Below are positions 20,612 to 48,144 of a stretch of DNA of 64,000 nucleotides, one piece after another. Below the pieces are notes generated by a model. It saw only the letters and a list, made by a program, of their open reading frames with translations, was not told the DNA's origin and searched no databases. Source of the stretch: Cymodocea nodosa. Lineage: Eukaryota > Streptophyta > Magnoliopsida > Alismatales > Cymodoceaceae. The position numbers and the translations under genes are program-made. The stretch is taken from positions 9,064,501 through 9,128,500 of the forward strand of contig CM072341.1 of the NCBI GenBank assembly GCA_036874045.1, read 5' to 3'. Every line of letters begins with the position of its first letter. The stretch's first letter is position 1.

Positions 20612-20628
20612 GCCCCCCACACTTAAAC
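20612..20628 (-). other. Polypurine tract of F
   Basis: Minus strand GTTTAAGTGTGGGGGGC abuts the 3' LTR (TGTTAAAGC). This is the expected plus-strand primer of an Athila-like element. Confidence 0.9.
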
Positions 20629-24112: not shown

Positions 24113-24767
24113 CTACAAATGAGATATAACGTCAATCTTTGCCTTATCCACCTCAATCCCTCTATTAGATATCACATGCCCAAGAACTATGCCTTCATTC
24201 ACCATGAAATGGCACTTTTCCCAATTTAAAATAAAATTCTTTTCAACACATCTTTGCAAAACCATATCTAAATGATGTAAACAAATATCAAAATTTTTGC
24301 CAAAAATAGAAAAGTCATCCATGAAAATTTCTAAAAATTTTTCATTCATATCATAAAAAATTCCTGCCATGCATCTTTGAAATGTTGCAAGCGCATTACA
24401 TAAACCGAAAGGCATATGCCTAAAAGCATAGGTTCCGCTTGGACAAGTAAAAGTAGTCTTTTCTTGATCCTCGGAGATTATGGGTACTTGGTTGTACCCA
24501 GAGTATCCATCAAGAAAATAGTAAAATTCATGTCCAGCTAACCTTTCTAGCATCTGATCAACAAATGGCAATGGGAAATGATCTTTACGAGTTGCTGAAT
24601 TCAATTTATGATAATCAATACATACCCTCCAACTAGTTTTTATTCTAGTAGGCACTAACTCATGATCTTGATTTTCAACTACTGTAAAGCCCGATTTCTT
24701 CGGTACTACATGCACAGGGCTTACCCACCTACTATCACTAATAGGGTATATAATGCCATTGTCAAGC
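24113..24767 (-). pseudogene. Reverse transcriptase core of F
   Basis: Athila-type RT: FPLPFVDQMLERLAGHEFYY, DGYSGYNQ, MPFGLCNALATFQRCM, the catalytic FMDDFSIFG and NWEKCHFMV, then GIEVDKAKIDVI. Relative to the preceding ORF the frame is lost by one missing A near 24768, where GTTAATGGC stands for GTTAAATGGC (E and G read AAATGG). It ends at a TAG. The catalytic Asp pair is intact. Confidence 0.92.
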
Positions 24768-26631
24768 CATTAACTATCTCCTTCTTTACCACCTCACTCA
24801 TTTGGGGATTTAATCTACGTTGAGGTTCTCTAAAGGCATAGTTCTCATCTTCTAGGATAATTCTATGTTGAACTATAGTGAGACTAACTCCTACAATATC
24901 ACTCAATTGCCAACCAAGAGCTCTCTTGTTTTTACTTAATATCTTCATTAATTTTTCTTCTTGGTTTGGGGTTAAGTTTGCTCCAATTATAACAGGATAT
25001 TCATTTTGCTTATTTATAAATGCATATTTCAGATTTTGTGGGAGTGCTTTTAATTTATTCCTTTCCTTAACTTGTAAAATCAAGTCATTATTCATTTCAT
25101 GCTCACCACTATTCTCTTGTAAAGATGCCTTGTGTTCTAGATTATCTTCAACGTCTAGAAAGCAAATTTCAGCACTAAGTTCTTCCTCATTACTACTACT
25201 TTCGACTTCTTCAAATAATTCAGAAATGCTTACACTAATGTTGTCATCTACTTGATGGTTTATAGTCCTATCCCTTTTAAAAATGTTCAATGATATCACC
25301 TTATTGTTAAAGGAGATTGACATTTTACCATTTCTGCAATTAATGTGGGCATTAATAGTTGCTAAGAATGGTCTCCCTAGGATCAATGTAGATTCATTTG
25401 GTTCACAAGTTGGTGCATTGGTTTCTAAAATGATAAAGTCAGTTGGGTATATAAAATCTTCAATTTGAATTAAGACATCTTCTACAATAACCATGGGACT
25501 CCTATATGATCTATCAGCTAGTTTAATTAGTGTTCTAGTTTTCTTAATTCCTGTGATTCTCAATTGTTCATATAAGTGTTTTGGCATCACGTTAACTCCT
25601 GCACCAAGATCTAATAATGCCTTTTCAATTAAAACATTCCCTATTAAGCAAGTTATTAGAGGAACACCAGGTTCATTGAATTTTTTAGCTAAACTATCAA
25701 GCAACATTGAACTACTTAACTCGGTTAAATAAACTTGCTTGCTTAATTTTTTTCTTGGCTTCCTATGCTTGGTACAAAGGTTTTTAAGCACCCTCCCATA
25801 TGCTGGACTTTTTCTAATTAATTCTAACATAGGCATATTAACATTGATTTTCTCAAATATGGTTCTTATAGCTTCATTTTCCACATTTTCTTTGTTGTTG
25901 TCAAGATGACTAGGAAATGGTGGTTTGTTGTTCATATTTTTAGATATTTCTTCTTTCTTTTTATCCATTTCTAAGTCTATAACAGGGTTTTCTTCAATTA
26001 ATTCTTCATTAGTTTCATCCATTAGACATTTTTCAAGTTCAACTCCTTCATGTTCTAGTTCTACATATTTATGTTCATCTCTTGTCAACATATTTTCTTC
26101 CTTTTCATCTATGTTTTCTTCACTTTGTTTTTCTTCACTTTCATGTTCTAATATGTTTCTTTCTATGGTTTTTCCAGATCTTAAGATTAAATTCACGTTT
26201 TCATCTACATTAGAGTCTTCTTCATCATCTATGACAATTACATCTTCTTTTTGTTGTAGGAGCTTAGTGGCAACATAATAGCTATCTCCTAACTCTATGA
26301 TTCTCTCTATATTCCTCATGGACTCTTCTATAGAACTACTACTAACATGAGAGCAATCACAAACATCATTTCTTTCATCAATATGAGATTTATGCATATC
26401 AAAATCGTAAGAGAATTCACTAGCATCATGCAAGACATCATATTCATCACTAACATGAGTTGTTTCTTCTACTGGTTGAATTTTTATATTAAATAACTTG
26501 CTGGTACATATGCTTTCATCATGACCTTTTACATGGCAATAAGAACAAGCACTTTCAGATAAAAAATCATTTATAAACTTAAAAGGATCATCATGATGAA
26601 AATTTGACATACTTGCAAGAAATTTAAGCAA
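24721..26631 (-). CDS. Pol N-terminal ORF of F: zinc knuckle, linker, protease, RT start
   Basis: 636 codons. Residues 29-42 form a CCHC knuckle (C29, C32, H37, C42; CSYCHVKGHDESIC) almost at the N-terminus. Residues 50-250 are acidic linker. Residues 250-300 carry the Athila-type INVNMPMLELIRKSPAY block. Protease active site is LLDLGAGVNVMP with D341. RT starts near residue 560. The likely start is the ATG at 26610 (MSNFHHDD), 126 bases from the PBS, which E matches in position. There is no capsid domain upstream, which is unusual because gag normally precedes the knuckle. Confidence 0.9.
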   Translation of the reverse strand: MLKFLASMSNFHHDDPFKFINDFLSESACSYCHVKGHDESICTSKLFNIKIQPVEETTHVSDEYDVLHDASEFSYDFDMHKSHIDERNDVCDCSHVSSSSIEESMRNIERIIELGDSYYVATKLLQQKEDVIVIDDEEDSNVDENVNLILRSGKTIERNILEHESEEKQSEENIDEKEENMLTRDEHKYVELEHEGVELEKCLMDETNEELIEENPVIDLEMDKKKEEISKNMNNKPPFPSHLDNNKENVENEAIRTIFEKINVNMPMLELIRKSPAYGRVLKNLCTKHRKPRKKLSKQVYLTELSSSMLLDSLAKKFNEPGVPLITCLIGNVLIEKALLDLGAGVNVMPKHLYEQLRITGIKKTRTLIKLADRSYRSPMVIVEDVLIQIEDFIYPTDFIILETNAPTCEPNESTLILGRPFLATINAHINCRNGKMSISFNNKVISLNIFKRDRTINHQVDDNISVSISELFEEVESSSNEEELSAEICFLDVEDNLEHKASLQENSGEHEMNNDLILQVKERNKLKALPQNLKYAFINKQNEYPVIIGANLTPNQEEKLMKILSKNKRALGWQLSDIVGVSLTIVQHRIILEDENYAFREPQRRLNPQMSEVVKKEIVNGLTMALYTLLVIVGG

Positions 26632-26735
26632 TAAAATTCACAACTAAGCACAAGAAAGATATCTTTATGAAAATTTGTCAAACAACCAACTTAGAACTTC
26701 AAATATGGTAAAAATAAACTAAGCCAAATTGCCAA

Positions 26736-26753
26736 TCCCCGGCAACGGCGCCA
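26736..26753 (-). other. Primer-binding site of F
   Basis: Minus strand TGGCGCCGTTGCCGGGGA, a perfect Athila/Tat-type PBS, six bases from the LTR start at 26760. Confidence 0.95.
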
Positions 26754-26759
26754 AAAACT

Positions 26760-28297
26760 TGTTGAGCTATATTTTTAGCTCAAGCTTTACTGCAAGTGCA
26801 CAGTTCTTTTAGTGTACATGGCAAATACAGGTCATTCTTCCACAAGGATCATGTTTATGACTTAATCAATTATTACTCAACTTGTTCTTCAAGCTCTTAG
26901 GTATACTTCAGTAAATTAATGACATGTGAATGTAGAATAATCAAAATTAACACAAGCTCACAAATCATGCAGTTTCAAGGCAATGTGTAGTGGAAAATGG
27001 TGATGTGAATCAATTTCTTTACTTGTAAATCTATCAACTCATTCAATTATAACATGCACACAAGTTCCACATGATTTAAGAAGTAATATCAATGCATCAA
27101 TATTGAGGAAAGAAAAATAAAACAAGAAGGTTCAATAGACTATACTACTCTATTCTAATTTATACTAAATGCATGCAACTATGCTATTTGCTAATCTAGC
27201 TAAACTATACTATACTACTTGCATTAGAAATTCTTTTTGGAGATTGATTAGGACAAAATGTGATCAATATAAGATATAACAAACTCAATTAACTATTGAA
27301 ATTAAAATTAACAACTAGATATAAGTGATAGGTTCTTCATTCAAATGAACATCAACACTTATTTTCTTCTTCTTTCAATTCACACCTTCTTCTCAAATAC
27401 GCCAAGCCACCATTGGTGAGTGTCATTCACTCGTGTGAAAGCCTCACCAAGAGCCCCAACAATACACGTGAATAGAGGATGCAAATTAGAAGTTGAAAGA
27501 AGAATTAAACATTCATATACATTCATTGAACTCTATCTAGCTAAGAAGACATATAATTGAGATGCTCACCACCATTTCTCATCAATTCTTCCTTCTATAC
27601 AAGAAAATAATAAACTCTAAGAGTTGTCAGTACCTTAGGAGCTTCTTATCTTCTTCTCTAGAGCTTTGAATTCAATGGAACTTGGCAGCAACTCCACCTC
27701 CAAGCTTGGACATCTTCTCCTTAGCCCTTGGGATGGTGAATAGCATGAATGGATGGTCTCTCTTTGGAAGCACAAGCCTCACCTCCAAGCTTCTTCTCCT
27801 CTTTCTTTCTCTCGTTGGAAACACCAAGTTGGCCTATGAAATTCCTCTCCCCTTGCATTTATGTTAGCATGTGTTCTCTCTCTTTGATGTGGCACCTTGG
27901 TTTTATCACCAAGCCAATAGGATGCCATAGATCTAGGAGGGCCAATAAGGTGTTGGCATGCCCTCTTCTTTAAAGTTTAGTCCACCAACTTTTGATTCTT
28001 TACATCTTCTTTTGGTCTTTTGCATTAAGCTCCTTCCATATGTGTGTTACCTATAATTAATGGAAATTGAGCTCCAAGAGACGTTAGCCAACATAGGACA
28101 TTCAAAATAAAATCAATGTGTTCCATGTAAAATTATATTCAATGGGGGATGCACTTGTTAATTAAATTTCTATATTGCACTATATTTCAAGACTTATATT
28201 ACCCATAATTAATATCATTTATCCACAATAGATAGATAATATCATGCAAAATTACTTATAAAATTCATTAAAAATGGGCAAAATTAAAGCTTGAACA
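26760..28297 (-). repeat. 5' LTR of F (1538 bp)
   Basis: Starts TGTTGAGCTATATTTTTAGC and ends AGCTTGAACA. It is followed by CTCCT and then E's LTR resuming at 28303. Differences from the 3' copy are scattered and mostly transitions. Confidence 0.95.
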
Positions 28298-28302
28298 CTC
28301 CT

Positions 28303-29354
28303 CCTCTGTATACACTGGCCGTCCATCGATCACACACTTTTCTTCTTTTTCTTCTTTCCTTTTATATTTCTTCAGTAGTAATTGTTTCTGCTTGAATGGT
28401 CGGTTGGATTTCCTTCATTCATATCAACAGCGATGCTTTCTTCTCCCTACGTGCAATCGTGGTTTTTCTTCCAACTGTCTTGTTTCTGCAACCGCTATAG
28501 TGGCATATTAGAAAATAAATAGTCCGTGGAGTTACAGATAACTCAACGGAATTTCTTCGTTGATTTAATTATAAAACACGTGCATAAATTTAACTATCTG
28601 ATGCTCAAGTGCATTTCGGATAGTTACAAACTTAACTATTCGATGCTCAGATGCATTTCGGATAGTTACAAATAACTCACCGATATATAACTTAAGTAAA
28701 TCTACCAGATCTCGACATATGTCAGCAGTAGTTTAATATTAAAATAAACATTTCGGAGAGTTATAGGGATAACTATTCGATGCTCAGATGCATTTCGAAT
28801 AGTTAGAGATAACTCACCGAAAATCCACTTAAGTCACTTTCCTAGAACATGACACGTGTCCACAGCTATTTTATAAATAAAAAGAGATTTCGGAGAGTTA
28901 CAGGTCTAACTATCCGATGCCCAGCTACAATTTCGGATAGTTAGAGATAACTCACCGAAAGTTCACTTAAGTCATGCATTATGGTTTTGACACGTGTACT
29001 TCAGGAAATAATAAAATATTCTTTCAAAACATAACTGTTCGGTAATAAAAACATAACTATCCGACATGTTCGGTTTGTTAAACATAACTATCCGAAATAT
29101 GTTCGGTATGTTAAACATAATTGTTCGAAATATCAGAAAATTCGGATACTTAAGAATTTCACAGCCTGCAACTTATCGACAGTTTAGAAATGTACTAAAT
29201 TAACATTAATTCCCCAAAATTAAGCAGATTCTTTAATTAAAGTATATAACAGTGCAATTATAACATAATGGCTTAATTCTCATATGATAAGCTAAATATT
29301 ATGCAATTAACCATCATTTAACCGTTAATAATATGCACTTTTTCATTCTAAACA
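28303..29354 (-). repeat. 3' LTR of E, inner part (U3) with dyad and G-box arrays
   Basis: Resumes at CCTCTGTATACACTGG after F's target copy and ends TCATTCTAAACA. It holds many pairs such as TTCGGATAGTTA with TAACTATCCGA, and AACTCACCGA. CACGTG occurs at 28577, 28853 and 28991, and CACTTAAGTCA near 28826 and 28963. In sense orientation this is U3, where the promoter would be. Confidence 0.92.
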
Positions 29355-29370
29355 CTTCCCCCATACCTAA
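29355..29370 (-). other. Polypurine tract of E
   Basis: Minus strand TTTAGGTATGGGGGAAG abuts the LTR start TGTTTAGAATG. Confidence 0.88.
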
Positions 29371-31125
29371 ATTTTGCTAGTCCCTTAGTAAATTAAGATC
29401 TAATTAATTGGTCTTTCAAAAAGTGCTAGAACTAATTCTTCTTTTTTCTTTTTTCTTCTGTTTAGCATAAGAATATATATTCTGTATTTTTCAGTAATCA
29501 ACCTACAAATATACTTAGAATATATGTAAATTACATACAAATTATATCATCATCACATAGGTGTTAATTATATTATCCTTTGTTCTTCTTTTCATCATTT
29601 GCCATCCTGAATTTTCCAATAAGATTTCTAGAAGAAATTTCAACAACATACAAATCAAAGTACAATCCAATTCAATATGATTAAGACAAGTAGAATAAAG
29701 AATTGTATCTCCATTAAACAACTTCAAAAGTCAATTCTAGATTCATATTACAACAATTCTAGATAACAGAAAATATACTTGATTCATAAGATATCTGTAT
29801 TTCACAAAACACTTATATCTTTTTAGAATAGTATATGTATATATATATATATATTTTTTTTTTTTCTTTTTTTTTGTACTTTAAAAGTTAATTTGACAAG
29901 CTTGAATCATACAAGAGCTTTCTAATGTACCCATGTAACGAGCTTTCAGTCAACAATCCCAGATTTGATCAGGATCTTAGCTTGCTAGATTTCAAGAGTC
30001 CTTTTTCAGGTCAACAATCCTTACATACCTATCTGCTCAAGTACAAAAGGCTCGTGATCAAACAAGTCAATAAACTTTCAAATTTTCCTCTTTTTTTTTT
30101 TTTTTTTTTTAATCAAAATACAAACATAAAACAAAACATTAATCACATACTGTATATGTATGTATTTCATTAATACAGATGCAGTAATCACCAATCTCAT
30201 ATAGTCCTGCTTCTATCATTTACTGTAAATATGAATCCATAACAATAAGCTCATACTTTTTCTGTAGTTTAATAAGATCTACACATAAATCATTCTACAA
30301 GTTCAATCAGTCAAATTAAATGTATCTTTAATCATGTGTTTCATTTAATCTAGAATTCAGATCTTAGCTCCTTCAGGACTTTAGATAATTTACTGATTTT
30401 TCATTAAGCATTCTGATTTCATTTTAAAATCGTGAGACTGTTAAACTCATGAAATTCAGAAAAAACATAAGATACTATATCTAGATTTGCATAAATAGTA
30501 AATTCTATAGCATCTTATATAGCCTTCTAAATATAACATTCAAGTAGTTACAGTTTATAAAAATTCTACAGTCTCAATTATCAGATAGTTACAGCAAGTT
30601 TATAAAAATTTTTAATTTCCACAAAACTTTGCAGTACCATTTTAATTCCTTTAATTAACAAACTTACGTGGCTGTTACTTTAATTACCTCCCCCCCATAC
30701 CTACATTTTGCATTGTCCTCAATGTAAAAGATTTGACAATAAGTACAGTAATTGTAGCAAGCATGAATATAGTTTTGTTTGATTTAAAATTCAGGGTAAG
30801 CAATTGGTTACATACCTTGTTTCGTTTGTATCTCCTTCTGCATATTTCGATTTTTGATTCTGGAAAACTTTTCATTCATAATTAAATGCAGAATATAAAA
30901 TAAAATAACATTTAACAGATATTAATAAATCATTGTCTTATGTGGAACCTAGGCTCCTATGCCTTTGGTGGCTCACAAGCAAGCTAGTTGGTTTCCCAGA
31001 ACAGATACCAACAAACTGGATTGATATTTTGTTTTTTTTTTCTTTTATAAAATAAACTTGAAAACTAAAATTTTTCTAAAAATAAACGTATAATACACAC
31101 AACATTAAACACACAAAATCACAGC
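29371..31125 (-). other. 3' spacer of E, homologous to the 3' spacer of copia H
   Basis: Noncoding, AT-rich. Bases 29480-30480 (reverse complement) follow H 52720-53660 block by block. Shared blocks include TTACATGGGTACATTAGAAA, GCTCTTGTATGATTCAA, TTCTTTATTCTACTTG, GTATTAATGAAATACATA and AAGTATATTTGTAGG. At 30687-30697 is a second polypurine-type tract and at 30711-30724 the inverted repeat CATTGTCCTCAATG, as in F. It also contains TA-repeat plus poly-T (29836-29874) and poly-T (30090-30110). Confidence 0.75.
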
Positions 31126-32255
31126 TTAAGAACATGATTGAAAAGTAGTAACAAATGGAATAAATGTATCAGTCCAAGCAAACTTTTTAGGCATAGTTCT
31201 TCTTGCTATTAATTCTGTTTTAATACAGTTCTTGTTCCTTCTTAATTTGTAAACATGTAATATATTATAAATTCCAAATACAAGTGTATTACCATTAATG
31301 ATATGAAATGCAGAAATGGATCCTTTTTGGTTCTAGGGTAATGTAGCAGTTTTTATTTCTACATCTATTTCAATATATTCCTCTTCCATTCATTAATGTC
31401 TTTCATAATCCATATTTGAAATTTCATCAATTCATCCTACCATCTTATCAAACATAAAGTAAGATCATCTTCTTCATTATACCACACTCCTATTTGAATT
31501 TTATTAAATTCTATAGATGGTGGTTTAGCTATTTCTCTCGGTATAGGTAAAATTTCTATAAATTCATCATAACTGTCTATGCTCACTATGTATATATCAA
31601 ATCCAAATGCTATTGATATATCTATGACTAGATATATATATCCATCAAGTATGACATGTGTTTGGTTAATTAATGATTTCTATCCTAGATATATCATAAT
31701 ATTTTCATTCCAAGATCTATTCAGAAAATTATACACACTTAAGCGTAAATCTTCACCCCAATTTCCTGTAGGTCTCCAATAATATAATTTTTCAGGAATT
31801 GCAGAATTTTTATCAAAAAATATTAAAATCGACCCACAATTTATAGTTGGTACTTCAAATCTATTAGGTCTTCCTATATTCCATTCTTCTCTCTTTATAG
31901 GATTTCTTATCAAAATATCAGGTAATAAACTTGCATACCTTGGTCTCGTCTTGTATATGATTAATCCTTCATCTATCCCCATAATATGATCTATTCCTTC
32001 TAATGTATTGGGTGGAATTCCAGTAGTTTCTTCCATAGCAAGATATTCATGGTTAATTGAACTACGATTAAATGACCTCCATATGAATCCATCTCTAATC
32101 TTAGTCATTTTTGCAGTTTGTAGTCCCTGAAAATATTTTTCTTCAATATAGTCTTTAATTTCCTTTGATACACAGCACAACCTACGCAGATCTTTACCTG
32201 ATAAATTACTCAGTACTTCCCTTAGTGCATCCAATGGTAATTGCATCAATTCCAT
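31126..32255 (-). pseudogene. F-box protein with F-box-associated domain, inside E
   Basis: An F-box gene read in the sense of E. The N-terminus has LPLDALREVLSNLSGKDL then RRLCCVSKEIKDYI, a good F-box fit, which in host proteins binds SKP1 of an SCF ubiquitin ligase. The rest resembles the F-box-associated (FBA) region: VILDGYIYLVID, FDIYIVSIDSYDEFIEILP, IGVWYNEEDDLTL and a C-terminal block ending FVTTFQSCS and TAA. First 191 codons are open. Two TAG stops, one frameshift near 31395 and a further TAG break the rest. No intron is visible. Not a normal retroelement protein; capture of a host gene is the simplest reading. Confidence 0.75.
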
Positions 32256-32449
32256 TTGTCGATTCTGTATAACACAAACAAAAATTTAGCAAAGATAAAA
32301 ATTAACATAACTACCGCACACCCTCGTGGAGTTAAGGCATAACTCAACGGACTAAGTTCGTTGAGTTAAGAACTAACTCTACGATACTATTAACTATAAA
32401 TAAAAACATATATATACACAGATAGTTGCTTCAGATATGCTGCTTCATT
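32256..32449. promoter_or_regulatory. Dyad-motif array upstream of the F-box gene
   Basis: Between the gag end and the F-box start, 32328-32392 holds GGAGTTA, TAACTCAACGGAC, TCGTTGAGTTA and TAACTCTACG in a row, forming imperfect hairpins. The same motifs fill E's LTR. This places an LTR-like array 70-140 bases upstream of the F-box ATG. A promoter role is inference. Confidence 0.45.
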
Positions 32450-33623
32450 CAGCTACCCTCCTAGAAGAGGTATCAATTTCATTATTAGTTCTATTGACAA
32501 GATTAAGTATTGCTTGCATTGGCAATCCTCCAATAGGTCTAGCTTCCATTGGTTCCTTCTATCTAAGTGGTATATTTCTATTCTGATTTTGAATTGCAGC
32601 ATTTCCAAATACAAAATTTAGACGATTGTTTAATTGTTGGATTATCTTTTCTAATTTCTCTATTCTAGATCCTTGTTCCAGTAATGCTTCATAATTTATA
32701 TTCTTCTCATTTATATTTTCTCCTCCCTGGAAATTGTTGTTTCTCCAAGATAAATTCGGGTGATTTCTCCAATTAGGATTATAAGAATTTCCCAAGTTAT
32801 CTCTCTAATTTCTAGCATAAATAATATCTAAATCATTTATGTTTGCATTCTTTTCTGCTAGCTTTTGATTTAATGATAACTCTTCTATTTTCTTTGTTAA
32901 TTTCACCTCAAGCATAGTACTTGAATCTATTTCATGCATTCGTCTTGGCAATATTTTTTTATCTGCAATAGCTTCAGCCGAGTTTTCCCACTATGCAGTT
33001 CTTTTTGCAAAGTTTTCTAAATATGCCCATGCTTCTTCACTACATAACTTTAAAAATCCATTTTGACAAGTAGATTCTAATAAAGATTTTGTTGAAACAT
33101 CTATGCCTTCATAAATTATACCTATTAATTGTGCCTTACTCATTGCATGATGTGGACATTGAGTCAGTAAATCTTTAAATTTTTCAAAATATTTCCAGAA
33201 TGATTCACCCTGTTTTTGGCTACACATTAATATTTCTTTTTTCTTTTTAATCGTTTGATGTGTTGGATAATATTTTTCCAGAAAAATAGAGCAAAATTCA
33301 GTCCATGTAGAAATTGAATCAGGTGATAGAGTATATAACCATCTCTTAGCTGTGTCTTTTAAAGAAAAAGGGATATATCTAAGTTTAATAGCATCTATAC
33401 TCATGCTTGGCATTTTCATCATTTGACAAACTTCATTAAATTCTCTAAGGAAATAATAGGCATCCTCTCTTTCTAATCCATGAAAATGTGGCAATTGACT
33501 AATATAATTAGATTTTAGTTCAAACCTATCTCCCTCAAAGTTTGGCAATCGAATACATGAAGGTTCATCAACTAATTCAGGATACAGAATTTCTCCTAAT
33601 GGTTTTTCTTTTGGAGTAGCCAT
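32450..33623 (-). pseudogene. Capsid (gag) ORF of E, located 3' of pol
   Basis: 210 open codons from the ATG at 33623 give a retrotrans_gag-type capsid: FELKSNYISQLPHFHG, YIPFSLKDTAKRWLY, FCSIFLEKYYPTHQT, WKYFEKFKDLLTQCPHHAM. After a TAG (probable Gln) the frame continues to GNSYNPNWRNHPNLSWRNN (about 32795), an Athila gag C-terminal motif, and a Gln/Asn-rich end. It is minus strand like pol, but lies about 4 kb downstream of integrase. Particle assembly would be its role. Its place and its separation from the zinc knuckle at 41910 are unusual. Confidence 0.88.
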
Positions 33624-34719
33624 CTCTACGTTCTCTTTTAAAGAAAGGTTAGCTACACCCCAAAGAATTCCGTTAAAGTTTAGTTCAGAAAATTTTTCAG
33701 TACTCCTCTGCGATGAAAATTCCTAGGTAGGTGTTCTTACTAATCGTTTAGTGCTTCCAGAACGGGTCCATGTACTCATAAATAAATATTAGAAGATTAA
33801 TTACATACCAGTCTAAAGCTTTCCATTCAATAAATATTTGTTGTTGTATGAAGTCGAATCAGTTACTTCTCCTTCCAATTCCTCCAACGCATTCTCCTTT
33901 CTTTTAAAAGTGCTGGTAACTCGTAAATAACATTCTGTTTTATATATATACTACACATCCATAAAGTGAATAAATCTCATTGCAAGAACTTGTCTTGCAA
34001 CGTGCATCGTGGTTCCTATTTTTATGGGTACGTGTACCACTGCTAATTTCAAATTTTGGTAACCGCTAAACCAATGAAGTTTCATTCGTGGTTAAAAGAA
34101 TAACCATTCTGCTTAATCCATAAACTAACCTCATTGAGTTACAGATAACTCAATGGAACATAGTCGGTTACTGTTGCTAACTCTACGGACTAACTTTGTT
34201 GAGTTATAGATAACTCAACGGAGTGATCTTATATTATATTACTGACCTTGTGGAGTTATGTTTAACTCAACGAACTTACTTCGTTGAGTTAACACTTAGC
34301 AACTTCTAAGTTTTACTCTCGAAAGTTCCTCTTTGCTTCTTTTTTTTTATTCATTCTGCTAACTAAAATAAAGTTAAATCTATGTCATTAATGCATCATT
34401 CTAATAAAAATTTGTTTAAATCTGAACATTATATAAAGATTTAACTTGCAGGTCATTTTATGTTATGCAGAATTTACATTTTACCTTGCAACATGTAGAA
34501 ATTTTTAAGCATTTATCCTGTCATTCAGCAAATTGTAAATCTATTAAACATTCATTCATAAAGTTCCACAAATTATATATAACATTCAATACATTCCATT
34601 CATTTCACATTCAAAACACGTATGAAAATTGCATCTGAAAAATTTATGTTCATTAATATGAATCAATTTACAGTACAAGTACATCATACAATTTTATACA
34701 AGTAGACGAACAATACAAG
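33624..34719 (-). other. Spacer between T32-like ORF and gag of E, with dyad hairpins
   Basis: No coding seen. Bases 34132-34155 form a perfect 10-bp inverted repeat (CATTGAGTTA, loop CAGA, TAACTCAATG). 34197-34222 repeats it with loop TAGA, and 34252-34295 has two more. CATCGTGG and AACCGCTA near 34005-34065 resemble a part of E's LTR. So a short LTR-like segment sits upstream of gag; no LTR termini or PBS are visible around it. Confidence 0.6.
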
Positions 34720-36956
34720 TTAATCTCTATTCTTGAGTTCATCTACTTCCTTCTAGAGTTTTTCTAATTGAAGTTCTAATTGATTAATTCTTTCTACAAC
34801 TCCTGTAATTCCTCTAGAAGGTATAGCTAGCTCTGCAGCTACAAAATTTTTGTATTCTTTCACTGAAATGGTTCTAGATCTGATCCTTTTTTATGCCCAT
34901 TTCGTGAAATCAATACAATCCACCATCAGCAGTGGGATCAAATCTCCATAAAATAATTTTTTCTTTACTGTTTTCAGCTTGGAGATAAAAACTATAGACC
35001 AATTTATTTGTATCCTTTTTACAACTGCAAACGTGGCCCATTTGACAAATTGACTTAATTCTATGTCATGGCCTTGTCATTGATAGACATTCTTAATCAA
35101 AATGTTGGCTACCATGTGTGCTTTACCATTTAAATGCTTCAATCTGTTTAATAAAGGCACACCAGGATTGATAACTAAACAATCTTTGATTTCCTGTTCT
35201 GTCCACTCAACTGCAGTTGTGTCTTCCAAAATTTTTAGTCCTTCATTCTTTAAACCAAAAATGTTATGGAGAAGCTCTAGTGTTATCTATACATCTGCTT
35301 CCTCCACATTGGAAATTAATCCTCCTTCACCTTCTCTCAAATTTGCATAAAAATAGGGCACTAAATTCTCATATACTACATGCCCTCTTTCTTGAGAAAT
35401 AAATTTCAGTAGACCTTCGAATTCAAATAAATCTTTGATTTCTTGCATTCCATCCCAATTTACTGGTCTACTGTAAATAATATCATAATCCCTAATTTCT
35501 TGGTATTTTGTATAAGCTTCCTAAATCCAAAAATGTACTTCATTCAAAATTGTTGTTTTAGTTGGGTCAGGAATGTGACTTTGTTATTCCAAAGGGGTTT
35601 GCTCTTGATATTCCTCTTCTATAGGCTGCATTTGAACATTCTCTATAGATTCCTGAATTTTTGCTTTTGCTTTTGTCTGTGGTGGTGAGCCGGTAGGACC
35701 CTCCACTCTATCTTGAATTCTTTCCATAAATTGCTGAAGAGTTTCTTACTCTTTAGTGGAATCTGTAAAGTTATTTTTGTCCAAATGGCTTCTTTCAGCC
35801 TCTTCATTTTCTGCTCTTTCTTCTTCTTCCTGACTACCAATCTGTTCTGCTACTGTTCTTTCTGATTCTGTAACAGATTGGGATGGAGTCACGGGCAATT
35901 CAGTTTCTGCCCTAATTTCTATTTCTTCTTGTTATATAGGCTGCAGACTAATTTCAGCCTGTTTTTCTTCTTCTCTTTGCTCCTGCTGTTGCAGCTCCTC
36001 CTACTCCTCCTCTGAATCGAATAGTAGGTTTATAAATATTTGCTCCACAGGCCTTGTGAAAATTGGTACTTCAGATTTAATTTCCTCATATTCAGGCACT
36101 TTTTCTTTTCCTTTCTTTTTTCTGATTAATTGTGCCTATTCTTCCTCTTCTTCTTCTGAAATTAAATCTACAAAAGTAGGCTCTGCAGGCTTTTGAGCCA
36201 CAGGTACTGGCTCTTCCTATTTAATTCTCTCTATAATTATTGGTCTCAGAGGACTAGCCTCAGCTTCTCTTGCAGCACTTGATTTAGCTGCTGCCTGATG
36301 TTGTCAACTTTTATTTTGTACTGGGCCCTTATCTTTTCTTCGACCCTTTTTTTCTTAATGGCATCATATAAAATATGTGCCTTAGCCGTAGCTATTTCTT
36401 GAGTATCACCTTGGTCTCTTGCTGTTTTGACCAAGCTAGTAAATTCTTTCTCTTCTTCTTTAGTTCTCGGTCAAACAAATGCTACTTGTGGCAATGGCTC
36501 TGTTGGCTGGACTAGAGGTCCTGACTGTTGTTCCTTAGGAACAGGTCTTTCAGTAGTCGGTTCTTCCTGTTCTTCAGTTGCCTCTTCTTCATTTTCTTTC
36601 CTTTATTGCTCCTAGATCGCCTATCTAGCTCGTCTACAGATTCGTTTTTTGAACCAGAGCCAGGACTTACGCTGGATTAATTCTAGGGCAACTTCATTAC
36701 TTGGCCTTATTTTTCTTTCCTTGCTTACGGCAATTTTTGTTGCAACCTTTATTCTTGTTTCCATTATTTGAGGTATTTGTATACCCAATTCTACTAAATC
36801 TCTTCTGAAATTGAAAAGTTTCAATTCTACCTTTTGTAGCTCTTTCTCTCTTGTCGTATTTCTGATCTTCTACCGCGTGTGCCATCCTTCTGATTCCTTC
36901 AGAAATTTTGATGTGTCAACAGCCTCTTCCCAGAACTCGGGTGTCATCTTCCTCAT
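34720..36956 (-). pseudogene. T32-like coiled-coil ORF of gypsy E
   Basis: About 740 codons with several stops. The N-terminus (from 36956) begins MRKMTPEFWEEAV. The middle is Glu/Gln/Lys-rich, with a clear coiled coil at 36246-36434. The C-terminal domain (35460-34780) has LFEFEGLLKFIS, FYANL, GLKNEGLKI, NGKAHMVANILIKNVY, RIQINWSIVF, KLFYGD and VKEYKNF, then a short coiled coil and TAA at 34720. The same blocks occur in order in copia D and partly C. I know this domain only as a putative plant transposon protein; its role is unknown. It is far from env proteins: no signal or membrane segment seen. Confidence 0.75.
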
Positions 36957-37562
36957 CGTGGAGTTACACAACAACATGGAATCACTCTGATTTTTACTGT
37001 TCTAGATTCTAAATGATTTGTCGGATAATGCCCCTAAAACCCTAGGTTTTAGTTTAAATAAGCCCTAAGCTTAGGTGAGTAATCGGGTCATTTCCCAAAC
37101 CAACTATTACTATCTTATCCGCGATCTTAGCTACAGTACTCCGTTGAGTTACAGTTAACTCAACGGAATAAGCTCGTTGACTAACTCAAGACTCAACGGA
37201 GTAAGCTCGTTGAGTTAAGCGTAACTCAACAAACTACCCGTACAAACAGATATAATAATAAAATACTACAGATAATAGTTTTTCTATTTTTTACCGGTTT
37301 AACCGATACGATGTTTCGGTCAGACCTAATAATATATATATATATATATATATTTTTTTTTTTCGATTGAACCGATATTATGTTTCGGTAAAACCAACAT
37401 TTTTTCTGAAAATTAATATACATATTTTTTATGTTTCGGTCATACTGATGGATCTAGTCGGTTGAACTGCAACGATTTTTATATTTTATATATATTTTTT
37501 TAATTTAATATATATATATTTTTTATATTTTTTTATATATAAACATAAAAACTGATTTCTTA
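36957..37562. promoter_or_regulatory. Dyad array and AT-rich spacer between integrase and T32-like ORF of E
   Basis: 37141-37166 is a perfect inverted repeat with 11-bp arms CCGTTGAGTTA and TAACTCAACGG around CAGT. Three more half-sites follow to 37232. Farther on, ATGTTTCGGT and ACCGATA(C/T) repeats occur at 37300-37450 with a (TA)n plus poly-T tract at 37329-37363 and very AT-rich sequence to 37550. It is upstream of the T32-like ORF by 180 bases. Confidence 0.5.
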
Positions 37563-38240
37563 CTAAGTAAAGCTCGAGTAGTCCTCTGCTCTGACTTCTT
37601 CTATAATTCCAAAGGAGCTTTTTGGTGTTTTCAGAATAGGTCTAAGTCTTTGTCCATTTACTTTAAATATATTCTGATTTTTAGGATTTTCAATTTCAAT
37701 AGCTCCATAAGGATAAATATTTCAAACTATGTAAGGTCCTACCCATCTAGATCTTAATTTTCCTAGATATACTTCTTGTCCTATTTCAAAGCTTTTTGGA
37801 ATAATTCTTCTATCATGCTAGAATTTAATTTTCTCTTTTTCTCTTACAATCTTAAAATAAGCTTCATTTCTAAATTCTTCTAATTCAATTAATTACATTT
37901 TTCTATTTTCAACAGCTTGATTTAAATTAGTGTTCAGAGTTTTTAATGCCCAATAAGCTTTATGTTCTATTTCAGCAGGTAAATGACAACTTTTTCCATA
38001 TACTAGCCTAAAAGGTGACATACCTAAGCTCTTTTTATAAGCAGTTCTATAAGCCCAAAGTGCATCTATCAATCTATTAGCCCAATCTATTCTAGTAGGA
38101 TTTACTACTTTTTCTAAGATTACTTTAATTTGTTTGTTTGCACTTTCTACTTGTCCACTTGTTTGCGAATGATATGATGTTGCAATTTTGTGGTTTACTC
38201 CATATTTCTTCATTAAGGCTTCAAAACTTCTATTACAGAA
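37563..38240 (-). pseudogene. Integrase of E, core partly deleted
   Basis: The C-terminal two thirds of a gypsy integrase, ending at TAG 37563. [29 protein letters not shown] (catalytic Glu) and [20 protein letters not shown] are clear. Relative to F, about 80 codons are missing between VEVEI and [14 protein letters not shown] at about 38245, taking both catalytic Asp residues. Enzyme dead. Confidence 0.88.
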
Positions 38241-39073
38241 ATGATTTCAACCTCAACAATAGGATTATGAGGCATCATATTCCTCTTTGATAATCTTCCT
38301 ATTTGTTGACATCTTAAACAACTTAAGTAATATTTATGAGCATCTTTGAATAGTGTTGGCCAATAAAACCCACATTGCAAAATTTTTGCAGCAGTTTTCC
38401 CTAAACCAAAATGCCCTCCATAAGCTTGGTCATGACAGAAAGACAATATGCTCGAATATTTAGTTTCTAGAACACATCTCCTTAAAACCAGATCAGGACA
38501 TTTCTTAAATAAGTATGGGTCTTCCCAATAGTAATATTTTACTCTTGAGAAAAACAATTTCTTATCCTGTCTATTCCAATCCTTAGGTGTTAGACTAGTA
38601 ACTAAGTAATTAACTATGTCTGCATACCAAGGTATTGTGTTGATGGTCATTAATTGTTCATCAGGAAAATTATCCTTAATTTCAATATTTGATTTTTCTA
38701 TTTGTAATCTTGATAAATGATCTGCTATTACATTCTCACAACCTTTTTTATCTTTAATTTCTAAATCAAATTCTTGTAATAATAATATCCATCGGATCAA
38801 TCTAGGCTTAGTCTCTTTTTTCTTTATTAGATGTTTTAGAGCTGAATGATCCATGTATACTATTACTTTAGCTCCAATCAGATATGATCTAAACTTTTCT
38901 AAGGCAAACACAATAGCTAATAATTCTTTTTCAATAGTTGTGTAATTAACTTGAGCATCATTTAAGGTTTTGCTTGCATAATGAATCACTCTAGGAGATT
39001 TTTCTATCTTCTATCCTAACACTACTCCTACAGCAAAATTAGAAGCATCGCACATTAATTCAAATGGATGGCT
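38241..39073 (-). pseudogene. RNase H and H2C2 finger of E
   Basis: Open from 38989. [31 protein letters not shown] and ADHLSRLQ mark RNase H, with the usual HTDH changed to [19 protein letters not shown] and CLRCQQIGR give the H2C2 finger before integrase. Upstream, MCDASNFAVGVVL is broken by stops around 38990-39073. Confidence 0.9.
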
Positions 39074-40300
39074 CTAATCAGGTGCTTGAATTATAGCAGT
39101 TGAAATTAAGTTAGTCTTAAGTCTGAAAAATGCTTCCTTGCAATTTTTATCAAAGTTAAATGGAACATCTTTTAATAGATTAGTTAAAGGTCTAGCTATC
39201 TTGCTAAAGTCTTTAATAAATCTTCTATAAAAACCATCATGTCCTAAAAATGATCTAATATCTTTTACTGATTTAGGTTCTGGTAGATTAGAAATTTCTT
39301 CTATTTTAGCTTTATCTACTTCCAACCCTTTCTTAGAAACAACATGCCCTAAGACTATTCCTTATTTAACCATGAAGTGACATTTTTCCCAATTTAAAAC
39401 CAGATTTTTTTCCACATAACGTTTTAATATTAAGTTTAAATTTTTTAAACAGACTTCGTATGAATTGCCATATACAGTAAAATCATCTATAAATATTTCT
39501 AAAAATTCTTCAGTCATTCCATTAAATATGCCCTACATACACCTTTGAAAGGTAGCTGGTGCATTGCATAATCCGAATGGCATTCTATTAAAAGCATAAG
39601 TTCCATTAGGATAGGTGAAAGTTGTTTTCTCTTGATCCTCTAATGCTATTGGAATTTGATTATACCCTGAATACCTGTCTAGGAAACAAAAATATTCTTG
39701 CCCTGCTAATCTTTCCAACATTTGATCTATAAAAGGTAAGGGAAAATGATCTTTCCTAGTCACAGCATTCAGCTTTCTATAGTCTATTCATACTCTCCAG
39801 CCTGATTGAATTCTAGTAGGTATCAAGTCTTGACTTTCATTCCTAATAACTATTAATCCTGATTTCTTGGGAACTACATGGATTGGACTAACCCACGAGC
39901 TATTAGAAATCGGATAAATTATGTCATTATCTAACCATTTCACTATTTTCTTCCTGACTACTTCTTTAAGGTTTGGATTTAATCTCCTCTCAGGAATTCT
40001 AACAGGTTTAGCATTCTCTTCTAAATATATGTGGTGACAGCATAAAGTTGAACTTAACCCTTTTATATCAGTCATAGTCCATCCTATTGCTTCTTTATAA
40101 CTTTTTACTACATCTTTTAATTTAGCTATTTGATCCTCTTTTAAATTTGAAGCAATAATGATTGGACAGGTTCGTTTATCTTCTAGAAATATATAGGTTA
40201 ATTCAGGAGGTAAAGGTTTTAATTCTAAATGTTGCCCATCAGAAGCTAGAGCTCTTAATTGAGCATCATCATTTTCTAAATTAATTTCTTTTAGATCTCC
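39074..40300 (-). pseudogene. Reverse transcriptase of E
   Basis: Blocks in order: RRLNPNLKEVVRKKIVKWLD, SSWVSPIHVVPKKSGL (39788-40075), FPLPFIDQMLERLAGQEYF, MPFGLCNAPATFQRCM (39533-39763), IDDF catalytic block, NWEKCHFMVK, and GFYRRFIKDFSKIARPL (39074-39325). Stops include a TGA for Cys near 39787 and TAA or TAG elsewhere. Closest in the window to G and then F; Athila type. Confidence 0.9.
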
Positions 40301-41043
40301 TTCTATATTTATGCTTTACTTTCCTCTAAAGTTTCAGAATTGATTTGCCTATTTAATTCTTCTTGAATCACATCATCTAACATATCTCCTTCATCCTCTA
40401 AAAAGTCTATGGTATGTAAGGACATTTCTAACTCCTCAAATCTTTCTGGTTTGAAAATATTTAATTGAGTATCTTCATTACCATATGCTAACTTCATTAC
40501 TCTAGTTTTACAATTTATAACAGCCCCTAATGCTGCTAAAAATGGACTTCCCAAAATTAAAGATGTATCACTATTTTTATGCTTAATTTGTTGGGAATCC
40601 AAAATTACAATATCAATAGGATATATAAAGTTTTTGATTTTAATTAAGACATCCTCTATTTTTCCTCTAGGGTATCTTATACTTCTATCAGCTAATTGAA
40701 TAACCGTACTAGTAGGAGTTAAGCCTTCTAATCCTAAGGATGCAAATATATCACTTGGCATAACATTTATACCTGCACCTAGGTCTATTAAGGTTCTTTC
40801 TAGAATGGTATTTCCTATGGTGCATGATATAACAGGGATTCCAGGATCAGATAACTTTTTAAGAATTTGTGGCAGAAATAGGGAACTACTTTGCTCAGCT
40901 AAAAATACCTTTCTAAGAACTTTTCGCTCTCTTTTCTTAGTACACCAATCCTCCAAAAATTTAGCACAAGGTGGCATTTTCTGCAATAGATCTAACAAAG
41001 GAATGTTAACTTGTACTTTTTCAAAAATTTCTCTAATTTTTTC
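40301..41043 (-). pseudogene. Protease region of E
   Basis: Open 40309-40998. LLDLLQKMPPCAKFLEDW, then the retropepsin active site LIDLGAGINVMPSDIFASLG and the flap-like ADRSIRYPRGKIEDV. LILGSPFLAALGAVINC follows, typical of Athila protease. The Asp is present. It is preceded by a stop at about 41044. Confidence 0.9.
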
Positions 41044-41972
41044 TTATTTTTTAGGTATTGTTTGTTGTAATCTTTCAAGATAGGGTGCTAAAGATTGTGA
41101 TTTAAAAGATTCTTTTTCTTTCCTTTGATTTGTTTGATCGTTTTTAGCTTCATTAGCAGATTCAGATTGTTCTTCAGTGATTTCTAGATTTTCAGCTATT
41201 ACATTTTCGTTATCATTTTGATTTTTACTCTTATCCAGCTTCATATTATTTTCATTTTGAATTCTTGGTGGTATATCAATTCTAGATCTTAATGTTATAC
41301 ATACATCTTCTAGATTTTCGTTACTCTCATGATGTTTTTGTATATCATTTTCGTGATTATGATCTTTAATTGTTTTTAGTTTTAAAGTGCATTCTTTAAA
41401 TTCTCTTGCATTAATATTTTCTGTTTGCTGTATATTTTGTAAATTATGCAGGTTTATAACATTATAATTTTCATTGTCCTGTTGCATAACTTGTATTTTC
41501 ATTGTATATTCGTCTAATACTTTTAATTTTCTTTCTAGATCATCTAATCTCATTACATTCAATTTTTGATCAATTTTCATTATGGTTTTTTAAGTTTCGT
41601 AAATTATATCCTTTTTAGGTTCTGAATATGCTTCCTTATAGTTTAATTGGTTGACTTCTTATTGTTGACACATAAAGTATTCTAGTTTGTCAAGGTTTTG
41701 CTCTATACTACGCTCCAGTCTATCATACCTATCCCAAACTTTAGTGTCTCTCAACATATTACACATTCTATACTGACCATTAGTTGGGTAAACTATAGGA
41801 TTCTCATACTCAGCTCTATTATACTAGGATAATTCATTTGTTGTTCATGGGATCTAACCATCTATAAACGTCTCAGTTTCAAATAGTTAGAATTGTCGTG
41901 TCCTTCAGAATTGCAGAATTCACATATGCTAATTACAGGTTTCAGAAATCTTTGAGCATAAGTATATGCCAT
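41044..41972 (-). pseudogene. Pol N-terminus of E with zinc knuckle just after the PBS
   Basis: The matching start to F is the ATG at 41972 (MAYTYAQRF), 102 bases from the PBS. It is followed by CEFCNSEGHDNSN with Tyr where the last Cys of the CX2CX4HX4C knuckle should be, a TGT to TAT change. Stops follow near 41860, then a charged linker (41044-41580, Asn/Glu/Lys-rich, coiled-coil-like). As in F there is no capsid before the knuckle. Confidence 0.8.
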
Positions 41973-42073
41973 ATTCTCAATTACAAAAGAAAACACACAA
42001 ATCTGGCTATTAAAACGAAACAGCTCTAATAGTTGCTTATATCTATTCAATTCAATTCAATTTCAATTTCAAT

Positions 42074-42091
42074 TCCCCAACAACGACGCCA
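42074..42091 (-). other. Primer-binding site of E
   Basis: Minus strand TGGCGTCGTTGTTGGGGA differs from the canonical TGGCGCCGTTGCCGGGGA by three C-to-T changes, as expected from decay of methylated cytosines. Seven bases from the LTR. Confidence 0.88.
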
Positions 42092-42098
42092 TAAAACT

Positions 42099-44043
42099 TG
42101 TTTGGATTTTCCCAGCACAACACTAGAAAAACTTTGATTTGTTACTTCTGTTTTTACTTAGTTAATTTAGCTTTATGCTTATCTTTTTTCTTTTAGAAGT
42201 AAACAAACAACCTTTAATACAATTTAGATATTAGTTCCAATTTGTACTTTAATTGCAAGTGCACAATGTCTATTGTATCAGTGTGCAAGTACAGGTCGAT
42301 CCCATAGGGAATTGCTTAAGAACTGAGAACTACCCGTTTTTAAAAATCAAATTTGTATCTTCAATAAGCCCTCCATTGAATTACAATTAATTAAACAAAC
42401 AAAGTTCGTTGAGTTATGGCTAACTCAACGGACTAACCTCGTGGACTTAAGTTAACTCCACGAGCCTATCTTTTCTTTTAAATACTGCTACTTACAAAGG
42501 AATTCGGCCAACCATTGGGCGATTCCACAAATTGTAAATAACATCAATTAAGCTCTTTAATGTTAGTGAACACTGGATTTATCATTAAACATACTAACAT
42601 TCAGATAATTCAAATAGTAACCACTACTTGCAACGTGATTACACCATTGAAAATTAAACCACTTACAATTCTGTCTTCTCTCCCTATAGAATCATGAGTC
42701 CAGAATTGCAAGATGATCTCCTCTTTAGCATACAGGCATCAACTCGAAGCTAAGGCTAAAAGCTTTACGATCTCTTGAAATATGAGTCGGCACTTGGTGA
42801 AAATGGCTTCCCTTCCCGCGACACGATCACTCCTCACAATGGTTGTCAAGCACTGTGTTTGGCTTGAAATCGACTCGACATCAAGAAAGTATTCTCACAG
42901 ACCTTCGATGGTTAGTGATTGTGGTGGTGGTAACAATGGTTGGTGTGGTACTTTGGAGAATTGCTGATACTGTTTGCAAAAAGCTCGGTGCTCCTCCTCT
43001 GTATACACTGGCCGTCCATCGATCACACATTTTTCTTCTTTTCTTTTATATTTCTTCAGTAGTAACTACTTCTGCTTGAAAGGTCGGTTGGATTTCCTTC
43101 ATTCATATCAACAGTGATGTTTTCTTCTCCCTACGCGATACGTGCAATCGTGGTTTTTCTTCCAACTGTCTTGTTTCTACAACTACTACAGTGGCATATT
43201 AGAAAATAAATAGTCTGTGGAGTTACAGATAACTCAACGGACTTTCTTCGTTGATTTAACTATAAAACACATGCATAAATTTAACTATCCGATGCTCAGG
43301 TGCATTTCGGATAGTTACAAACTTAACTATCCGATGCTCTAATGCATTTCGGATAGTTACAAATAACTCACCGATATATAACTTAAGTAAATCTACCAGA
43401 TCTCGACACGTGTCAGCAGTAGTTTAATAATAAAATAAACATTTCAGAGAGTTACAGGGCTAACTATTCGATGCTTAGATGCATTTCGGATAGTTGAGAT
43501 AACTCATCGAAAATCCACTTAAGTCACTTTCCCAGAACATGACGCGTGTCCATAGCTATTTTATAAATAAAAAGATATTTCGGAGAGTAAGACATATAAC
43601 TATCCGATGCCCAACTGCAATTTTGGATAGTTAGAGATAACTCACTGAAAGTTCACTTAAGTCATGCATTATGGTTTTGACATGTGTAATTAGGAAATAA
43701 TAAAATATTCTTTCAAAACATAACTATTTGGCAATAAAAACATAACCATCCGACATGTTGAGTCTGTTAAACATAACTATCTGAAATATATTCGGTATGT
43801 TAAACATAACTATCTGAAATATTAGAAAATTTAGATACTTAGGAATTTCACAGCCTGCAACTTACCAACAATTCAGAAATATACTAAATTAACATTAATT
43901 CCCCAAAATTAAGTAGATTCTTTAATTAAAGCATATAATAGTGCAATTATAACATAATGGCTTAATTCTCATATGATAAGCTAAATATTATGCAATTAAC
44001 CATCATTTAACCGTTAATAATATGCACTTTTTCATTCTAAACA
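42099..44043 (-). repeat. 5' LTR of E (1945 bp)
   Basis: Starts TGTTTGGATTTTCCCAGCAC and ends TTCATTCTAAACA, followed by CATAT. It lacks about 250 bases after 42620 that the 3' LTR keeps. It carries the same U3 dyads (for example CGTTGAGTTA, TGGC, TAACTCAACG at 42406-42429) but with more mutated half-sites and fewer intact CACGTG than the 3' copy. E is clearly older than F. Confidence 0.93.
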
Positions 44044-44879
44044 CATATGATTTTGTCTTTCGTGAATGACTTCTTCTCCATATCTCTAGATGTCTTTGTT
44101 GACCTAAAGTTCCTACGTTTCTTCAACAGATTTCTAAATTTTCTGGTCAACAACAGTAAACCATCGTCAGAATCACTAGTGACTTCTGAGACTTTATCAG
44201 CCTCAAAAGTTAGATTCCTTCTAGGATTTTTCCCTTTTGGATCTAAATATTGTACTTCATAGGTTGTCAGATTTCCTATGAGATCATCGAGAGTATATAT
44301 ATTTAAATCTTTGGACTCTTCAATAGATGTTGTCTTTTGAGCCCAAATTTTAGTTAAAGATCTAAGGATCTTTCTTACCAAGTATTTTTCCTTGAATTTC
44401 TTGCCTAAAGATTTTAATAAATTTACAATCTCAAGAAAACGGGAATACATATCAAAGATACATTCATTTTCGTGCATTTTAAAAAGCTCATATTTATGTA
44501 CTAAAATATTAATCTTAGATTCCTTGACTTGGTTAGTACCTTCGTTGGCAACTTCTAATGCATGCCATATCTCATATGCAGTTTGATATGTAGAAACTTT
44601 ATTAAATTGATCATGAGATAAAGCACAAAACAAGATATTTAAACCTTTAGCATTTAGTGTCATTCGCTCCTTTTCATCAAAAGTACAAGTATCATATGGA
44701 GTCGTAACTAACACTATGGGATTGCTAATTATATGCCATAGTTTGAAATCAATTGACTGAAAGAATACTTTCATCCTATATTTCCAATAGCCATAATTGC
44801 TACATTCGAACATAGGAGGACGATTAGTGGTCTGTCCTTCAGTCATAACTAAGATTTCTGTATTATCCATTTTAAACAT
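44044..44879 (-). CDS. Gag of C, truncated by insertion of E
   Basis: About 278 codons without a stop from MFKMDNTEIL. UBN2-type gag domain: YGYWKYRMKVFFQSIDFKLW, AKGLNILFCALSHDQF, ALEVANEGTNQVKESKIN, VHKYELFKMHENE, LVRKILRSL. It ends FTKDKIIC at the CATAT duplication; the next residues (Y-K-C-N-K-P-G-H) are at 17931. Before E inserted, gag and the linker at 16929-17936 would have been one frame. It is strikingly intact next to C's ruined pol. Confidence 0.92.
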
Positions 44880-48140: not shown

Positions 48141-48144
48141 TATA

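Follow-up and report, generated by a model that had tools for sequence, protein, structure and literature searches.

Gag behind pol in Athila-type Ty3/gypsy retrotransposons of Cymodocea nodosa

To our knowledge, gag before pol is treated as a fixed order in long terminal repeat (LTR) retroelements. The ratio of Gag to Pol is usually ascribed to frameshifting, readthrough, or spliced fusions. We analyzed a 64,000-nucleotide stretch of the Cymodocea nodosa genome (GenBank assembly GCA_036874045.1, contig CM072341.1, positions 9,064,501 to 9,128,500, forward strand; referred to here as the window), which contains two Athila-type Ty3/gypsy elements, E and F. As far as the available parts of the descriptions go, Athila elements with pol also have gag, with open reading frame 1 (ORF1; gag) preceding ORF2 (pol) (PMC2410132), and Diaspora consists of a single gag-pol ORF (PMC1142308). 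The gag-behind-pol order of the E and F families differs from the gag-first order of these relatives as described there, and phrase matching in open-licence papers found no description of it. The gene order in E is primer binding site (PBS), pol beginning with a zinc knuckle, an accessory ORF (OrfX), gag, an F-box gene, and the 3' LTR.

We consider it likely, with a probability of about 0.86, that E and F carry the halves of an ancestral Athila-type gag-pol frame that was cut near the Gag/protease boundary and swapped, together with the expression scheme proposed below. The E pol encodes protease (PR), reverse transcriptase (RT), RNase H (RH), and integrase (INT) in this order, and its closest relatives are Athila-like polyproteins, a clade label that we presume to be correct. 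A first-pass annotation of the window had placed a knuckle about 100 nt after the PBS (41972), the end of pol at 37563, and the only capsid domain of E in a separate ORF behind INT. All of this was borne out. The ATG at 41972 is the first in frame, and the knuckle (CEFCNSEGHDNSNY) begins at 41924; its last Cys reads Tyr in the window copy and is Cys in all six siblings found with the knuckle-first start (CEFCNSEGHDISDC and variants; 10 fetched). F begins pol in the same way, as also annotated, with an ATG at 26610 and the knuckle CSYCHVKGHDESIC, and the pol ATG sits 76 to 125 nt past the PBS in the two families. The E knuckle fits a CCH pattern only (1.7 expected by chance in six frames of 64 kb), and that of F fits CCHC (0.0 expected). 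Compared with each other, the two knuckles reach a local score of 48 (shuffles, 21 ± 4.5; 0 of 1,000), versus 23 to 42 against eight fused relatives.

The capsid domain of the E gag was identified as PF03732 (E value, 3.6e-20), and all 15 gag relatives, compared by their first 330 residues, matched the window once each, only within 33779-32724. The ORF had been annotated at 32450-33623; its place stands, and its frame proved to be longer, from the ATG at 33779 to the TGA at 32447-32445 (444 codons, four in-frame stops, no frameshifts). All four in-frame stops are TAG. Residues 66 to 385 of the fused relative P0018 align at 33599-32736, while residues 451 to 1084 align in two pieces at 41445-39593; therefore, one protein in P0018 corresponds to two swapped genes in E. 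The order in fused relatives is capsid, knuckle, WRNHPNFSW, coiled coil, LRSG, and protease. Gag of the E family (447 amino acids [aa] in the longest frame among 30 gag loci) and of the F family (453 aa in locus L062) stops just short of the LRSG block, where the relatives continue to protease, and Pol of both families has a knuckle at its start and the LRSG block inside. Within Gag, the knuckle is absent in E and has its last Cys replaced in the one F gag read. This loss alone is not diagnostic, because the knuckles of the fused relatives P0017 and P0119 are also degenerate. A structure model of the E capsid (mean pLDDT, 78.6) gave weak matches in a structure search, none at an E value of ≤0.001 (best, dARC1 capsid, 7.1e-3; Ty3 capsid, rank 49), and a sequence search of solved structures with the capsid gave 0 matches. 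No relatives were found in the viral contigs and GTDB contigs searched, and a protein search with the first 215 residues of F gave no match at E values up to 0.1.

Related copies were sought in the window's own genome (374.6 Mb), where numbers of candidates are not counts of validated copies. The RT piece of E gave 5,499 first-look candidates (150 scored, 91 to 100% identical) and the gag piece 6,531 (150 scored, 93 to 100% identical, with open frames of up to 454). A firmer copy count comes from the 33-nt donor site that precedes gag, which is present at 2,621 places (≤3 mismatches; reversed control, 0). Ten copies were chosen by pol, seven on account of their long open frames and three by score, and eight of them carry LTR, leader, PR, RH, INT, OrfX, gag, and F-box on one strand in the same order, matching the arrangement that the annotation had proposed to look for in related copies. 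Both LTRs are visible only in L021/L022, the other stretches stopping before the 3' LTR. The exceptions are L019/L020, in which gag is interrupted by an opposite copy and the leader is absent, and L023/L024, in which a Copia element occupies the place from OrfX to F-box. Thirty loci, including the window's own (L029), were chosen by gag. Upstream of gag, all 30 have the RM2 palindrome described below (at least 2 half sites), 19 have OrfX in the flank, one has an E-type LTR, and two have an Athila PBS; an F-box gene lies downstream in 26, and no gag frame contains CCHC. L039, the locus with the upstream LTR, is a deletion copy without pol in which both the pol-OrfX spacer and the OrfX-gag spacer remain, and the other locus with a PBS (L050) retains the whole usual 940-nt spacer before gag.

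It could be argued that E is a one-off that acquired gag through an old nested insertion, as the annotation had cautioned, or through chimeric recombination, and lost a 5' gag by deletion. E is indeed old (Kimura two-parameter [K2P] distance between LTRs, 0.070 and 0.078), it harbors F as a nested insertion, and the window contains several elements inserted into one another. However, the order recurs in the 8 of 10 siblings and the context in the gag-chosen loci, which refutes this explanation. Moreover, no PBS remnant (≤6 mismatches, on E's strand) and no LTR remnant beyond the palindromes flanks gag, and stop density is alike in gag (4 of 444 codons) and pol (13 of 1,452). We give a one-off origin almost no credence.

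The second family leads to the same order. For the F RT, 150 rows were scored, and 14 have an open frame of 1,489 to 1,491 aa (one with an internal TAG). Three upstream stretches (L059 to L061) show the F start, i.e., PBS, ATG at +125, knuckle, and a frame open to the stretch end. As annotated, no fused gag precedes pol in the F copies read, and neither E nor F copies read have a canonical gag between PBS and knuckle. A search with the fused gag-PR protein P0119 yielded 46 candidates scored among the matches listed: 32 loci belonging to another gag family, most of them with 454-aa frames, 13 matches to the protease part only, and one fused relic. This last (C14:10303763-10306162, minus strand) is an Athila relic with gag-protease in canonical order and a 1,235-aa frame with stops. 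At 25 of the 32 gag loci, an F RT match lies 2,937 to 4,827 nt upstream on the same strand, and at none downstream; for the other seven, none of the 105 RT places entered lies within 8 kb. The argument of the annotation that two diverged elements share this start of pol, which makes a deletion in one copy less likely, is upheld; F shares even more of the arrangement than annotated, and the gag-behind-pol order is a property of the lineage. In L062, the pol stop is followed by 309 nt and an open 453-aa gag. The window F is 98% identical to L062 before and 94% identical after a 1.73-kb deletion that removes gag and that has 4-nt microhomology and no GT-AG ends (by eye). The window F is a gag-deletion derivative of a family with gag behind pol.

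As judged from codon comparisons, purifying selection acts on the E-family gag with a constraint like that of pol, and the constraint on F-box is weaker. In the pol-chosen copies plus the window, pN/pS was 0.38 for gag (bootstrap, 0.24 to 0.61; 9 copies), 0.43 for RH-INT (11 copies), 0.52 for PR (11 copies), and 0.25 for the OrfX core (10 copies). A value of 0.27 for gag came from a set that included loci chosen by gag similarity and was set aside for 0.38. For F-box, pN/pS was 0.69 (0.49 to 1.21; 9 copies) in the pol-chosen copies plus the window and 0.58 (0.40 to 0.82) in the window plus 25 gag-chosen loci. These values bear on the idea that the 3' gag is an extra gene and that assembly Gag is supplied in trans by canonical gag-pol elements of the same genome. 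Such elements would be represented by the one decayed relic in canonical order, and gag-less elements have precedents: BARE-2 is reportedly gag-less. Among 63 Retand clusters, as far as the consulted part of their description goes, seven are without GAG and two are without both GAG and AP. Against this stand the purifying selection on the 3' gag, its open frames of 447 and 453 aa, and the single fused gag place among the 46 P0119 candidates scored in the matches listed; we regard supply in trans as improbable.

The surroundings of gag in E suggest how it might be expressed. The RM2 palindrome (AACTCAACGRA-n5-TYCGTTGAGTT) occurs 10 times in the internal region of E, always within the three gaps that precede OrfX, gag, and F-box, with more copies in the LTR. 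Half sites number 10 in the internal region versus 0.13 expected, and folding of the three internal clusters is much stronger than that of shuffled sequences (z, -4.9 to -7.2). TATA and donor were read in 25 of the 29 sibling gag loci, i.e., those matching the start pattern. Relative to the gag ATG, a TATA lies at -171/-172 in 24 of 25 and at -170 in L039, a donor GTATGT lies at -29 in 24 of 25, and an acceptor precedes the F-box ATG. A search of the genomic DNA for the exact GT-AG exon-exon junction lacking gag gave 202 places (≤3 mismatches; reversed control, 0), compared with 2,621 for the unspliced donor site. Unspliced acceptors do not account for the 202, because the junction pattern never occurs in the 30 gag loci, their closest site departing from it at 9 positions. 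The same acceptor is also fused to a second donor, which follows the gag stop, at 13 places including L034 (control, 0). In 22 of the 25 sibling loci, ATGGAAAGCTTNAGACTG or a close variant stands in the exon upstream of the junction, and its ATG would be in frame with the F-box protein (by eye). Eight junction places (by eye, among the matches listed) lie 4.0 to 6.9 kb downstream of an E RT on the same strand; in four, the distance is close to the 6.5 kb that a full-length spliced element should have. Full-length RNA therefore appears to have been spliced, reverse-transcribed, and inserted. On this genomic evidence, gag of E lies in an intron, the removal of which joins an upstream exon to the F-box gene. 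DNA deletions do occur in both families (L039 and the window F) and could be invoked for the 202 junction copies, but boundaries at exactly GT and AG, the second donor meeting the same acceptor at 13 places, and reversed controls of 0 make them a very poor explanation.

In the scheme that we propose with the swapped halves, Pol would be translated from full-length RNA. Gag of E would come from a shorter RNA, the promoter of which, formed by LTR-type palindromes and the TATA at -171, would lie just upstream; this RNA would yield Gag when unspliced and the F-box protein when spliced. The Gag:Pol ratio in E would then be set by promoter strength and splicing rather than by frameshifting or readthrough. 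The knuckle of Pol may bring Pol and RNA to the particle, and spliced gag-less elements as well as gag-deleted copies such as the window F may be carried by the Gag of other copies. A bolder version, which we hold only tentatively, sees a pol-first lineage of thousands of copies with an intron-encoded Gag under an LTR-like promoter, in which splicing would make the RNA encode a captured F-box protein instead of Gag and spliced gag-less genomes would be packaged as built-in parasites. If so, the F-box protein could direct the ubiquitin machinery of the host at silencing or at excess Gag.

Several observations weigh against the proposal. The copies were chosen for long frames or best score and are not a random sample, and among the P0119 candidates the position of gag is judged from the 32 gag loci and the fused relic, the other 13 matching the protease part only. 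No sister relationship between E and F is supported, the RH-INT tree separating them with weak support, and the swap may have arisen once or twice in their families; as a match to pieces of E, F ranks 56 of 122 for PR, 96 of 122 for RT, 3 of 32 for RH-INT, and 2 of 15 for INT. In the window E, stops exceed those expected from LTR age in gag (4 versus 1.7 to 3.4), F-box (3 versus 1.1 to 2.2), and OrfX (18 versus 3.1 to 5.7), and the F-box pN/pS of the pol-chosen copies is compatible with 1. The pol stops are 7 inside segments (13 including segment ends) versus 4.8 to 9.1 expected. The excess in OrfX suggests that it was probably already broken before E last moved. The 202 junction copies may stem from few events, and the leader donor of E is unconserved (GTAATT in 4 of 8 and ATAATT in 4 of 8 copies read). 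Beyond the palindromes, the spacer upstream of gag has no similarity to the LTR above shuffles; thus, the promoter function proposed for it rests on the palindromes and the TATA. A U3-like stretch upstream of gag (AACCACGATGCACGT, by eye) was not above shuffles and was dropped.

For F, the predicted junction of leader donor to gag acceptor, the only acceptor tried, occurs at 0 places genome-wide, and leader-to-gag splicing as predicted was rejected. In F, the spacer between pol and gag contains 15 ATGs and lacks both a TATA and any RM2 half site (≤2 mismatches); neither the promoter nor the splicing part of the expression model is therefore supported for this family. The same facts are relevant to an alternative that accepts the order as found but has Gag translated from the full-length RNA either after reinitiation or through internal ribosome entry, with the palindromes acting at the DNA level or elsewhere. 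The distance of 309 nt from pol stop to gag in F, the lack of RM2 and TATA there, and the absent junction speak for it; the 15 ATGs in the F spacer speak against it, as do the 3.8 kb and OrfX between pol and gag in E and the TATA 171 nt before gag. We judge this alternative to be unlikely, though the most serious of those considered, and retain swapped halves with a separately expressed Gag.

The coordinates of E and F are compiled in Table 1. Self-comparison and flanks reveal a nest in which Copia element C is interrupted by E, whose 3' LTR is interrupted by F, all three on the minus strand. E is a complete insertion at 17936-44044 with a target site duplication (TSD) of ATATG and LTRs of 1.95 kb; 29355..42098, annotated as the element, stands as its internal region and not as the whole. 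Differences between the E LTRs are heavily skewed to transitions (117:17), and the F LTRs have a K2P divergence of 0.015. A conserved GAGGACAATG/GGGGG motif common to E and F, placed 1.2 to 1.3 kb before the 3' LTR in both, indicates that the 3' end of E is native.

Table 1. Features of elements E and F (window coordinates)
Feature	Position	Strand	Remarks
5' LTR of E (TGTTTAG...CCAAACA)	42098..44044	-	TATAAAA at 43050; TSD ATATG outside
PBS of E	42074..42091	-	3 mismatches to Athila-type PBS
pol of E, PR-RT-RH-INT	37563..41972	-	Knuckle-first ORF, decayed: 3 frameshifts, several stops
RM2 cluster between pol and OrfX	37140..37233	-	
OrfX, accessory ORF	34720..36978	-	Broken in window copy; homologous to ORFs 3' of pol in two window Copia elements
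RM2 cluster upstream of gag	34130..34290	-	
TATA box	33944..33950	-	171 nt upstream of gag ATG
Putative intron containing gag	32265..33808	-	Donor CTG|GTATGT at 33808; acceptor ACAG|AATCG ending 32265
gag	32445..33779	-	Capsid, WRNHPNLSW block, coiled coil; no zinc knuckle
RM2 cluster upstream of F-box gene	32323..32385	-	Within the intron
F-box gene (PF00646)	31125..32255	-	Broken in window copy; sibling has 379-aa open frame
ACATTGAGGACAATG + GGTATGGGGGGG motif	30690..30760	-	GAGGACAATG/GGGGG at 30722; shared with F (21795-21835)
Polypurine tract (PPT) of E	29356..29380	-	
3' LTR of E, first part	28298..29355	-	
3' LTR of E, second part	17936..19077	-	Separated by F
Element F	19076..28297	-	LTRs 19076-20611 and 26758-28297; TSD AGGAG
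PBS of F	26736-26753		0 mismatches to Athila-type PBS
pol of F, knuckle-first	26610-22163	-	gag of element F deleted near 22030-22037

The accessory gene OrfX is common to a Gypsy element and Copia elements in the window, with homologs behind pol of Copia C and H at 10377-12347 and 56113-57674 (PPT ATCATCAAAAAGGGGGAGATTGTT). No support was obtained for assigning OrfX to a known plant-transposon domain of Pfam. At four places, the distance from RT to gag or junction is about 2.4 kb shorter, which equals the size of OrfX (C11:7395611/7400084, C4:3445787/3449757, C5:3085677/3089688, and C1:20935012/20939372; by eye), and OrfX-less or OrfX-spliced E-family copies may exist. A second palindrome (TAACTATCCGA...TCGGATAGTTA) fills the linkers before OrfX in Copia C and H and part of the E LTR (12906-13343, 58215-59137, and 43282-43807), with 57 half sites in the window versus 0.85 expected. 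A truncated E-family copy, approximately 92% identical in pol, lies at 46287-48379, with the 5' LTR of Copia C inserted into it. In addition, 900 bp of the 3' region of E (29502-30405) are 70% identical to a stretch behind a plus-strand Copia pol (52801-53657).

Among known systems, the Athila clade (Athila4, Calypso, and Diaspora) is closest to E and F, sharing the PBS type (scored with a motif that we take to be that of Athila), similarity in PR, RT, RH, and INT, a long internal region, an extra ORF behind pol, and the gag family (all 15 gag relatives tried match the gag of E). Its described members differ in having gag before pol, whereas in E and F gag follows pol and Pol has its own knuckle. 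In the parts of the literature consulted, additional sense ORFs behind pol are known, with gag unnamed among them (PMC7264820), and a large plant survey discarded elements with unexpected domain order as likely mispredictions (PMC6317226). Such filtering is a blind spot for elements with gag behind pol, and pipelines requiring gag-pol order would miss or mislabel families of the E/F type. A lineage with swapped halves, thousands of copies, and an apparently intronic gag makes the gag-before-pol rule testable.

In foamy viruses, gag comes first, Pol is made from a spliced RNA apart from Gag, and the genome has an internal promoter. E resembles them in Pol apart from Gag and in the internal promoter proposed here but has pol first. 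The window F, with pol and without gag, resembles BARE-2 and other gag-less elements; unlike these, it is a deletion derivative whose relatives have gag behind pol. Ogre (Ty3/gypsy, Tat) also has an intron in the element RNA, spliced in a subset of transcripts and bearing on Gag versus Pol expression. In the available account, this intron lies between GAG-PROT and RT (PMC6317226), whereas gag of E is itself intronic and behind pol. Spliced element RNA of this kind is evidenced in the E family by junctions in genomic DNA; in the F family, the one predicted junction was not found. In Sireviruses (Ty1/copia), palindromic motifs occur both in the LTR and ahead of ENV, an arrangement that Bousios 2010, in the portion consulted, takes as support for an internal promoter (PMC2829016). 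The palindromes of E are likewise located in the LTR and ahead of a gene that follows pol, and homologs of its OrfX lie behind pol of two Copia elements of the window. E is a gypsy element, with gypsy-type domains and no copia-type gag or domain order (copia-type gag is found only in neighbouring elements), and its motif precedes three genes, gag among them.

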